This document shows positions 24,152 through 27,875 of a stretch of DNA of 49,629 nt, in pieces. The notes under the pieces are model-generated. The model searched no databases and was not told the origin of the DNA. It saw nothing but the letters and a program-made list of their open reading frames with translations. Made by a program: the position numbers and the translations under genes. Numbering within the stretch: the first letter of the stretch is position 1; every line of letters begins with the position of its first letter. The DNA is from Thaumarchaeota archaeon casp-thauma3 (GTDB taxonomy: Archaea > Thermoproteota > Nitrososphaeria > Nitrososphaerales > Nitrosopumilaceae): contig LFEY01000027.1 in the NCBI GenBank assembly GCA_001510275.1, positions 1-49,629 on the forward strand. The letters run 5' to 3'.

Positions 24152-24280
24152 AAAATTTAGCATTTTACATTTTTAGTAAACATTTAATTCAATTGTGTTT
24201 TCTGTTTGAAATTATGCGCATACACAAATCAAAAAGTTTACAGTTAAAACGCGCCTAATTTTTTCACATTTTAAAATATT

Positions 24281-24341
24281 GGTACCGGCAACTTTTGTAC
24301 CTCTAACTGAACTTTTTGTGTTTAGTAGGGTGTTCAGTTAG
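24281..24341. repeat. Two consecutive inverted repeats in a convergent intergenic gap
   Basis: GGTAC (24281-24285) can pair with GTACC (24297-24301), and CTAACTGAAC (24303-24312) pairs perfectly with GTTCAGTTAG (24332-24341) around a 19-nt loop. The elements lie between two genes that run toward each other. They may be a two-way terminator or part of a small RNA. The rest of 24152-24427 is AT-rich with nothing else clear. Confidence 0.5.
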
Positions 24342-24387
24342 CTAAATCAAGTACATAGTTTGCAGTCTCATCAAAAAGATCAGCCAT
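24334..24387 (-). CDS. Possible 17-residue micro-ORF after the nitroreductase gene
   Basis: ATG at 24387, 40 bp after the nitroreductase stop on the same strand, opens MADLFDETANYVLDLAN, an acidic amphipathic-looking peptide. GAGG precedes it by about ten bases. Its TGA lies inside the 10-bp inverted repeat. It could be chance in AT-rich DNA; length alone gives weak support. Confidence 0.2.
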   Translation of the reverse strand: MADLFDETANYVLDLAN

Positions 24388-24427
24388 CGATGCTATTCCT
24401 CAATACTGGATAAAAATCATTACAGAA

Positions 24428-25405
24428 TCATTCAATGACTTTGATAAGCTCTTTGAGTTTTCTTCTTGACTTTGGAGGTTTTTTCTTGTCTGTATAACCA
24501 ATACACAGAATGGAAGAAGGCCGCAGATCAGTTCCTAGAATTGTTTTTACCTTTTCTTCATCAAACATTCCTATCCAAATTGTACTTAGTCCAACTCCAG
24601 ATGCTGCCAATAGTGAAAATGATGCTGCAATTGTTGCGTCTTGTAATGAAAATTTCTCCAAAATTTGGGGAGGAAATTTTAGTTTAACTCTAGAGGGATC
24701 CATGCAAAAGACCAAAACAACTGGAGCATTTACGTAAGGTTGTTTGTTTGCAGCCTCAACAAGTGCCTCTTTTGTTTTTTCATTTTTAATTAAAAACACT
24801 TGAAATCCTTGAAAGTTTCCAGCAGTAGGAGCAACATCTGCTGCTGATAAAATTTTGTCTACTTTCCAATCTTCCACTTTGGTTTTCTCAAATTTTCTAG
24901 TTGAACGTCTTGTTGCAAATACTCTAAACAAATCAGTTGGCAGGAGATCTTGTCTTATCTTTTCTGGTTCAGATGACAAGATAGCCTGTATTAGCGATTG
25001 TTTTGGATTTGTTTTCACATCTTTGGATTGTTTTTCATCATCTCTAATCCACACAGATGGATAGAATTCCTTAGTTGCAATGTGTACATATTGAGGTTCA
25101 TGAGGAACTTTGGCATATTCTAAAACTTGTTCTTGAATTTCACTAGTTTTTGCTTCAAGTAAACGATGATTTGTAAGTGTAAACTGAGTAACATCAGAAT
25201 TAACTCGAATGTAACTTGATTGGTCTTCAAGTTCAACTTCACCCATAGAGTTTTTTTTAAAAATTTCAACTAGTCGTTCTAATTCATTTTTGTTTAGAAT
25301 TACAACATCTATATCATCTTCATCTACACCTTTCCAGACTAATCTGCATCCATCTTTTGAGGTATAAGATGGTTCTACTGTTTGAAATTGCATGTTGTTA
25401 GTCAT
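24428..25405 (-). CDS. Nitroreductase-family flavoprotein with an extra N-terminal domain
   Basis: A 325-residue protein. Residues about 140-325 are a nitroreductase/FMN-oxidoreductase domain (FATRRSTRKFEKTKVEDW, SAADVAPTAGNFQGFQVF, DATIAASFSLLAASGVGLSTIWIG). The first ~135 residues are not part of the usual fold. They include DEDDIDVVILNKNELERLVE and a second half with YVHIATKEFYPSVWI, perhaps a regulatory or dimer domain. The substrate is unknown. The upstream side is the decayed interval with the Cas1-like fragment. Confidence 0.8.
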   Translation of the reverse strand: MTNNMQFQTVEPSYTSKDGCRLVWKGVDEDDIDVVILNKNELERLVEIFKKNSMGEVELEDQSSYIRVNSDVTQFTLTNHRLLEAKTSEIQEQVLEYAKVPHEPQYVHIATKEFYPSVWIRDDEKQSKDVKTNPKQSLIQAILSSEPEKIRQDLLPTDLFRVFATRRSTRKFEKTKVEDWKVDKILSAADVAPTAGNFQGFQVFLIKNEKTKEALVEAANKQPYVNAPVVLVFCMDPSRVKLKFPPQILEKFSLQDATIAASFSLLAASGVGLSTIWIGMFDEEKVKTILGTDLRPSSILCIGYTDKKKPPKSRRKLKELIKVIE

Positions 25406-25431
25406 AATGAATTATTATAAAAAAGAAAGTA

Positions 25432-25457
25432 TTGCTAGCCTAAGAGACCGCTAGCAA
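25432..25457 (-). terminator. Hairpin followed by T-rich DNA on the minus strand
   Basis: TTGCTAGC (25432-25439) and GCTAGCAA (25450-25457) are a perfect 8-bp inverted repeat with a 10-bp loop. Read on the minus strand it is followed by TACTTTCTTTTTT. It could end transcription coming from the Cas1-like relic before the nitroreductase gene, or be a remnant end of an element. Confidence 0.4.
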
Positions 25458-25506
25458 CAAAATATGCTCCTGCACCTCCTCCTATTTGATTAAGCAAGAA
25501 CTTCAG
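25435..25506 (-). pseudogene. Relic of a small Gly/Ala-rich reading frame
   Basis: On the minus strand a 23-residue frame (opening CTG 25506) ends LLNQIGGGAGAYFVASGLLG. A neighbouring frame reads SNEVYGWTLRQITEVLA just upstream. Both look protein-like but are short, lack good starts and are offset by a frame. They may be the broken end of a small membrane protein. Confidence 0.25.
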
Positions 25507-25559
25507 TTATCTGTCTTAGAGTCCACCCATAGACTTCATTACTTTTGTTTACAAGCGAA

Positions 25560-25862
25560 TTACATAAATGGTGACCGACCTTTGATTTCTGAGTGGTGTT
25601 TGTCTGACGAAAACCCAATTACAATTCCAATCACAATTAACTCATTTATCAGAGATAGCGCTTTAGTAGAGATGTATCCTTTTCCTGAGAGAACTGTTTT
25701 TTCATAAGGCATATTTTTGACAAACCATTCTTCTGTAGTTGGTTTTGAGAATGGGTCATGATTATCTTTGAGAATAATTTTAGACTCTTTGATAGATATA
25801 GAGTGGCCGTAGCCTTTGAGGAATTTTACGTTAAAGTGTGGTTTGTGACCTTTGAGAGTCAA
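25560..25862 (-). pseudogene. Cas1-like N-terminal fragment (casposase/Cas1-solo type relic)
   Basis: A 100-codon frame starting at TTG 25862. Residues about 9-82 resemble the N-terminal beta domain of Cas1 integrases: FNVKFLKGYGHSISIKESK, IILKDNHDPF, EEWFVKNMPYEKTVLSGKGY and ISTKALSLINE. This matches the pattern of YG..I.....L.I, then a partner of I.I.G.G.IS..A..L. After LINE the similarity stops and the frame ends with an unrelated tail. The whole catalytic alpha domain (Glu/His/Asp metal site) is missing. No Cas genes or repeat array lie nearby. Casposons with Cas1 are known from Nitrosopumilus-type genomes, so a dead integrase fragment is the best reading. The assignment rests on recall. 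Confidence 0.55.
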
Positions 25863-26009
25863 TTGTTAGAATTTAAAAACTCAGAATTTTCTTACATGAA
25901 GATAGAATTTAGGATTAAAAATTACCATTTAACTCAAATCTTTCAGGAAAATATTCAGGATTTAATGAATTCCCAAGGATTTTAAAGTGAAACTATTGGA
26001 TATGAACAC

Positions 26010-27875
26010 ATGCGCATATTGCAACTACACTGTGATAGCATAGAGTACACTCCAACAAAAAAGGAGATAAAATCAGCTGAAGAGATTGAAAATCCTCAAA
26101 CTCAAAGACTAGAGGAAGTTGTAGTTGCATTTGTTGCAATAGAAGACGGTGATGATTCTTCAGTAGCACAAAATGCAATATCTCAAATAAAAAATTCTAT
26201 GGAAAAAATTGGTTGTAAAAAATTATTACTATACCCATATGCTCATCTTAGTTCTAATCTTGCAAAACCTTTTGTTGCAATTGCATTGCTAAAAGAGATG
26301 GAAGATGGTGCATCTGATCTTGAAGTGTCTCATTCTCCATTTGGTTGGACTAAATCATACAACCTAAAAGTAAAGGGGCATCCGTTAGCTGAAAGCTCCA
26401 AAGTTGTTACAAAGGATTCTACTGATTCAAAAGATACAGAACTTACATCTGAGGCTCTAAAAGGTGAATCTAAAATTCGTTCTTATTGGAAGATAATGTC
26501 TCCTGATGGAGTAATGAGTAACATTACTGATTTTGATTTTTCAAATTATAAAAAATTAGAAATTTTAGCAAAGTACGAATCCGCAAAAGTTCGTCATGTA
26601 GATGAACCTCCTCCACATGTTGCATTAATGAAAAAGATGGCAATTGCAGATTATGAACCTGCATCTGACTCTGGTAACCTGAGATTTTTCCCTAATGGCC
26701 GTTTGATAAAATCTTTGATTGAATGTTATGTCACTGATAGAGTAAAAGAATATGGTGGCAATGAAGTTGAAACTCCAATTATGTATGATTCAGAACATCC
26801 AAGTATGGTTAGTTACTTTAATCGATTTCCAGCAAGGCAATACAATATTGATTCAGATGGAAAGAAACTATTTTTGAGATTTGCTGCGTGTTTTGGACAA
26901 TTCCTAATGGCTAATCAATTTCAATTATCACACAAGAACTTACCCTACAGACTCTATGAGTTAACACGATATAGTTTCAGACGAGAGCAATCAGGTGAAC
27001 TTGTTGGATTAAGAAGACTACGTGCATTTACAATGCCTGATTGTCATGCATTCTGTAAAGATTTGGAACAAGCTGCAGACGAGATTAAGGTACGATTTGA
27101 TCTATCTCAAAGTGTTCTACATGAACTTGGAATTGATAAATCAGATTATGAGATGGCAATTAGATTTACTGAAGACTATTACAATGAAAATAAATCATCC
27201 ATTGAAGAACTAGTCAAAAAACATAACAAACCAGTCCTAGTTGAAATGTGGACAGAGAAGTTCTTTTACTTTGTTCTAAAGTGGGAGTTTAACTTTATTG
27301 ATAGTACGGGAAAAGCATCTGCATTATCCACTGATCAAATTGATGTAGAAAATGCTGAGAGATATGGAATTGAATTTGTTGATGAAAACAATACTGCACA
27401 ACATCCTATTATTCTGCACAATTCACCTAGCGGGGCAATTGAGAGAATCATTTACGTATTATTGGAAAAAGCTGCAAAAGACATCAAAGAAGGAAGAAAA
27501 CCACAATACTCACTGTGGCTTGCTCCAACACAAGTAAGAGTCATTCCACTAAAAGAAGAGTTTAATGATTTTTGTGAAAGTTTAGTTGATAAAATTTCTA
27601 GTAATGATATACGTGTAGATATTGATGATAGAAATGAAAGTATTGGAAAGAGAATCCGTGAAGCAGAAAAGGAATGGATAAGATACATTTTGGTAATAGG
27701 CGATAAAGAGGCCAATTCTGAGAATCTTAGCATTCGTGATAGAAAAACAGGTGATGTTCGGGAATTATCCTTTGATGATTTCTTGGATGAAATAAATAAA
27801 CAAACTAAAGATAAACCATTTACAGGTTTGAACTTGCCAAAATACCTCTCAAAGAGACCACAACTAATGGTGTAA
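26010..27875 (+). CDS. thrS: Threonyl-tRNA synthetase (archaeal type)
   Basis: A 621-residue class II synthetase. The first ~140 residues (MRILQLHCDSIEYTPTKKEI onward) are the archaeal editing domain, related to D-Tyr deacylases, instead of the bacterial TGS/N2 domains. The catalytic core has motif 2 in YRLYELTRYSFRREQSGELV and RRLRAFTMPDCHAF, and motif 3 in SGAIERIIYVLLEK. The C-terminal anticodon-binding domain includes YSLWLAPTQVRVIPL. A TATA-like ATTTTAAA at 25977-25984 suggests a leaderless mRNA. It is followed 3 bp later by agmatinase. Confidence 0.96.
   Translation: MRILQLHCDSIEYTPTKKEIKSAEEIENPQTQRLEEVVVAFVAIEDGDDSSVAQNAISQIKNSMEKIGCKKLLLYPYAHLSSNLAKPFVAIALLKEMEDGASDLEVSHSPFGWTKSYNLKVKGHPLAESSKVVTKDSTDSKDTELTSEALKGESKIRSYWKIMSPDGVMSNITDFDFSNYKKLEILAKYESAKVRHVDEPPPHVALMKKMAIADYEPASDSGNLRFFPNGRLIKSLIECYVTDRVKEYGGNEVETPIMYDSEHPSMVSYFNRFPARQYNIDSDGKKLFLRFAACFGQFLMANQFQLSHKNLPYRLYELTRYSFRREQSGELVGLRRLRAFTMPDCHAFCKDLEQAADEIKVRFDLSQSVLHELGIDKSDYEMAIRFTEDYYNENKSSIEELVKKHNKPVLVEMWTEKFFYFVLKWEFNFIDSTGKASALSTDQIDVENAERYGIEFVDENNTAQHPIILHNSPSGAIERIIYVLLEKAAKDIKEGRKPQYSLWLAPTQVRVIPLKEEFNDFCESLVDKISSNDIRVDIDDRNESIGKRIREAEKEWIRYILVIGDKEANSENLSIRDRKTGDVRELSFDDFLDEINKQTKDKPFTGLNLPKYLSKRPQLMV

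Follow-up and report, generated by a model that had tools for sequence, protein, structure and literature searches.

A short open reading frame (ORF) whose product resembles the N-terminal part of Cas1 lies beside the essential gene thrS in a marine ammonia-oxidising archaeon, and raises the question of whether it marks a casposon at this site, as a preliminary description had suggested, or came there by another path. We compared the contig of 49,629 nucleotides that carries it (hereafter the window) with related genomes.

A casposase gene fragment beside thrS

The ORF (25560-25862, minus strand) begins with TTG and runs for 100 codons to a stop. Over residues 1-74 it gives a gapless alignment with a 337-aa Cas1 from a related genome, in which 57 of 74 positions are identical (77%, E = 2e-41), and identity to the N-termini of full-length family 1 casposases of the same genus is also 77%. 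Similar sequences occur in 23 of the 100 genomes searched, the window's own among them, with E values reaching 3e-37 per genome. Given this gapless identity, the E value and the many further matches, the resemblance to Cas1 is not a product of chance. The relatives that bear a name are Nitrosopumilus and Nitrosarchaeum MAGs, and none was found in viral contigs.

The match breaks off sharply at codon 74, which bears out the earlier reading of a Cas1-like frame over about 74 residues. The 26-codon tail that closes the ORF has no convincing relative, and none of the relatives compared carries it; a gene conserved over all 100 residues, tail included, would have spoken against a fragment, and none was found. 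The catalytic domain with its E/H/D/D residues is missing, again as first described: the Pfam match of a full-length relative covers residues 143-289, past the point at which the ORF leaves Cas1. The absence of a CRISPR array was also confirmed, since none was found within the window. When the entire assembly (96.6% complete) was searched with full-length Cas1, the stub was the only piece found.

Searched alone against Pfam, NCBIfam, PADLOC and PDB, the stub has no match, so that a profile search of the fragment, proposed at the outset as a check, formally gives no Cas1, the outcome named there as a refutation. This is because the fragment is short; its full-length relatives, 77% identical to it, do match the Cas1 profiles PF01867 (2e-42) and TIGR00287 (4e-41). 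Their best solved match is 6opm, named as Cas1 endonuclease, which we take to be the Aciduliprofundum boonei casposase. With 77% identity over 74 aa to proteins of PolB- and terminal inverted repeat (TIR)-bearing elements, the ORF is related to casposon Cas1 (Cas1-solo group 2) as a gene fragment.

Casposons and truncated cas1 genes in the genus

The elements that contain the full-length cas1 relatives also carry a PF03175 PolB gene together with two conserved small genes, and several directly adjoin the 3' end of ef-2. In these respects they match family 1 casposons as described (PMC4046053, PMC6563490). Nitrosopumilus casposons of this family include NitAR1-C1, NitAR2-C1 and NitNF5-C1/C2 (PMC4046053, PMC6563490), and the N. 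koreensis casposase has been studied in vitro (PMC6614799). The relatives of the stub share with them the casposase, PolB, TIRs and insertion at the ef-2 3' end, whereas the window has 74 cas1 codons only, without TIR, PolB, catalytic domain or ef-2 site.

Within the genus, reading inward from the left casposon repeat, cas1 comes first or second among the genes, and a variable gene often precedes it. The repeat TAAAAATAGAATGCCCCC lies at most 3 kb upstream of 21 of the 37 cas1 stubs and of 16 of the 18 full-length or half genes, where control loci give a chance expectation of 0.0066 per 3 kb. We identify it as the casposon TIR because it abuts ef-2 and recurs inverted at the opposite end. The TIRs of the full-length relatives' elements are poly-C, and most paired units have direct repeats of 15-20 bp; published casposon target-site duplications range from 1 to 27 bp, with a median of 15 (PMC4046053). 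The cas1 start itself was rejected as an element end, as intact casposons contain no inverted second copy of it. Two further peculiarities of casposase frames were seen: at L067 / L027 a full casposase is frameshifted into overlapping frames of 194 and 153 aa, and at L019 and L028 (G077) an in-frame NUMOD-like EETRRKLSEA sequence lies upstream.

A whole-Cas1 search of 95 genomes yielded 53 truncated pieces that we sorted into the casposase group. Among these, 42 start at cas1 codons 1-6, whereas only 4 extend to the C-terminus (two-sided binomial p = 5e-9, shared ancestry ignored). The stubs end anywhere between codons 25 and 178, several contain frameshifts or stops, and N-terminal-only Cas1 ORFs of 130-180 aa occur elsewhere, ending at different places. 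The DNA 5' of the cas1 start is mostly unrelated among copies. A different gene often ends at this start (HAD hydrolase, GNAT acetyltransferase, AbiV-like HEPN and sugar dehydrogenase families), and at 25 of 55 loci its TGA lies inside the cas1 start, a 4-nt overlap. This overlap is partly forced, because the start sequence TTGACT/ATGACT supplies TGA in one of three frames; an integron-like cassette tag at the cas1 start was rejected for this reason. The chromosomal flank of many stubs is either the ef-2 3' end or the 3' end of an isocitrate/isopropylmalate dehydrogenase gene; at these two flanks the gene that separates TIR from cas1 differs from genome to genome.

A patchwork insertion at the thrS start codon

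In many relatives the gene order is deoxyhypusine synthase (DHS), a 135-aa gene, about 60 bp and then thrS. The window carries an insertion at the thrS start codon, flanked by direct copies of ATGCGCATA (Table 1). The repeat is exact over 9 bp and extends to 16 bp with 3 mismatches (24207-24222 and 26003-26018), compared with 15-20 bp for intact elements of the genus and with the published range of 1-27 bp.

Table 1. Features of the thrS locus in the window, followed by the casposon-derived units compared with it
Feature	Position or size	Strand	Remarks
Abandoned thrS leader/promoter, of the type directly before thrS in relatives	24152..24213	+	83-96% identity to leaders of L109, L144, L113 and others
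Left 9-bp direct repeat ATGCGCATA (cut-off thrS codons 1-3)	24214..24222	+	
Insertion of 1,787 bp between 135-aa gene and thrS	24223..26009	.	Extra relative to the order DHS - 135-aa gene - ~60 bp - thrS
Displaced block: nitroreductase (24428-25405), its upstream region, first ~16 codons of HTH regulator (24341-24427)	24341..25499	-	
26-codon unrelated tail and stop closing the ORF	25560..25640	-	No relatives beyond low-complexity/short matches
5' stub of family 1 casposase (cas1) gene, codons 1-74	25641..25862	-	77-78% identity to full-length casposase N-termini
Piece of ~60-bp dispersed repeat NPEYFPERFELN	25906..25966	-	76-92% identical copies
Replacement thrS leader, second type	25967..26009	+	Matches thrS leaders of L120, L110, L117 and others
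Right ATGCGCATA copy, present thrS start	26010..26018	+	
thrS, threonyl-tRNA synthetase, intact	26010..27875	+	PF08915, PF00587, PF03129
Unit L197	2,064 bp		15-bp target duplication
Unit L070	2,837 bp		Two TIRs and duplication
Unit L226	2,650 bp		Near-perfect 16-bp repeat
Unit L195	1980-5692, 3,713 bp		Perfect 20-bp duplication; two left ends back to back
Unit L064	4,085 bp		Full cas1 kept, without PolB

The nitroreductase of the displaced block is 84-92% identical to nitroreductases sited away from thrS in relatives, its flanks align with theirs too, and the HTH regulator is the usual neighbour following it in other genomes. Because the insertion includes the nitroreductase, nitroreductase-thrS is not an ancestral interval. 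The comparison of this interval with related genomes, also proposed at the outset, gave a mixed answer: there is an insertion bounded by a short direct duplication, but the TIRs of an intact element are missing and the nitroreductase falls inside it. The dispersed repeat has four copies in the window's genome and many in relatives. For the stretches 24223-24340 and 25500-25640 a source was sought, and no clear relatives were found. The insertion is a patchwork in which the Cas1 piece lies between the displaced nitroreductase block and a partial copy of the dispersed repeat.

From the 135-aa gene to thrS, the interval varies across the genus from 60 bp to more than 12 kb, and the region upstream of thrS is an insertion hotspot. 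We considered whether one conserved family of elements inserts at the start of thrS, and rejected this because the same remnant of the left leader could not be traced in those genomes whose leader is of the second type.

Some smaller observations concern the leaders and the dispersed repeat. The old leader, together with the first 9 thrS bases, is stranded 1.8 kb upstream of thrS. The thrS leaders of the genus are of at least three types, unrelated or strongly diverged, and in L113 (G038) the leader contains a 4.6-kb insertion with about 31 bp of leader repeated on either side. The ~60-bp dispersed repeat reads NPEYFPERFELN(D/G)DF, and its copies, L253-L259 among them, lie mostly in non-coding surroundings.

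Could the whole 1.8-kb insertion be a decayed casposon at the thrS start, with eroded TIRs and with the 9-bp or imperfect 16-bp repeat as its target-site duplication? A Cas1 piece within an insertion that has a direct repeat at both ends would fit, as would the variability of the thrS interval in the genus. Yet the window contains no casposon TIRs: nothing TIR-like lies at the ends of the insertion or close to them, and there are no paired ends in 24190-26040, whereas intact elements of the genus have poly-C ends and the longer duplications given above. The insertion moreover contains displaced chromosomal pieces and ends in a second-type thrS leader. Casposon-type PolB is absent from the window's genome, where only an 859-aa frame gives a sub-threshold PF03175 match, and thrS is not among the recurrent casposon sites, which are the two 3' ends named above. 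We consider a decayed casposon improbable. From the initial proposal of a dead or excised casposon beside thrS, what survives is a dead piece of a casposon integrase; the interval as an excised or degraded casposon in place is not supported.

That the 100-aa ORF instead encodes a small protein with a function, the N-terminal domain of Cas1 having been domesticated, seems more doubtful still. Its Cas1 part is open without stops, and pN/pS to relatives is low, about 0.2 (0.11-0.22 for the closest full-length pairs), with synonymous sites near saturation. The other N-terminal-only ORFs of 130-180 aa might be counted in favour, but they differ in end point, the tail of the window ORF is common to no relative, and stub ends in the genus are scattered, with several interrupted frames; most likely the window ORF has no function. 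Cas1 is also common to casposons and CRISPR-Cas, and the stub might on that ground have been left by a CRISPR-Cas adaptation module. With its closest relatives in TIR- and PolB-bearing elements, 6opm as their best solved relative, no array in the window and no further Cas1 in the genome, we give this origin almost no credence.

We regard it as highly probable that the 5' part of a family 1 casposase gene survives here as a dead stub, which arose as in related genomes and was brought to its place by recombination. For the manner of its origin, we infer from those genomes the following course. A left casposon end would comprise the TIR, a variable gene whose stop codon often overlaps the cas1 start, and then cas1; deletion of the casposon interior would leave this left end with the start of cas1. 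The resulting short element would still lie between TIRs and may be mobilised by a casposase from elsewhere. The window stub would then have lost its TIR and variable gene, and a later recombination would have put the stub, the nitroreductase block and the new thrS leader in their present place. Illegitimate recombination that joined casposon debris and a displaced gene at the thrS start is the plainest reading. At the window stub the TIR, the variable gene and a casposon-sized duplication are all absent, so that its own passage via a short non-autonomous element is conjectural.

Short casposons that carry cas1 stubs

The window's own genome has five TIR-like sites, and none was found with the reversed control pattern. 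Two of them, L235 (G000:C23:6923) and L238 (G000:C7:7164), are casposon TIR remnants, the latter abutting the target sequence of the short unit L197. Five such sites, with one at the L197 target, indicate that casposons have been in this genome.

Four units (L197, L070, L226, L195) have both TIRs and duplications, lack PolB and contain only the start or the N-terminal half of cas1; L064 is also listed in Table 1. L195 has a casposon left end (TIR, gene, cas1 stub) on each side, and the TIRs of the two belong to different types. The empty site of L197 is found as a single TTACCAAACATCATC in a relative with 97% identical flanks, and the flanks are contiguous in further genomes; this insertion is therefore recent. 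The L197 element likely moved after it had lost most of cas1, though the loss could have followed insertion instead.

Non-autonomous deletion forms, such as Ds-like and MITE-like derivatives, are known for other transposons. L197, L070 and L195 resemble them in retaining ends and duplications and not the catalytic part of the transposase; they differ in that the transposase is a casposase and that the retained left end has variable genes, and the window differs further in having no ends. We slightly favour the view that marine ammonia-oxidising archaea harbour casposons that are short (about 1-4 kb; TIR, variable gene, cas1 5' stub, TIR) and non-autonomous, with neither PolB nor the catalytic part of the casposase. 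A casposase would have moved them in trans, depositing variable genes at a small number of sites used repeatedly (ef-2, the dehydrogenase gene and others), and the window stub would be a footprint of them. A search of the open-licence literature, not exhaustive, found no description of non-autonomous casposons.

On its own the window fragment is a fossil; taken together, cas1 5' stubs are a genus-wide record of the sites at which casposon-derived units inserted. Movement of the deletion forms in trans would show that in nature the family 1 casposase also handles other DNA as long as this is bounded by the right ends, and nature would thereby offer a parallel to the step that led from transposon to spacer insertion. 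The variable genes suggest that casposons have delivered genes to these archaea.
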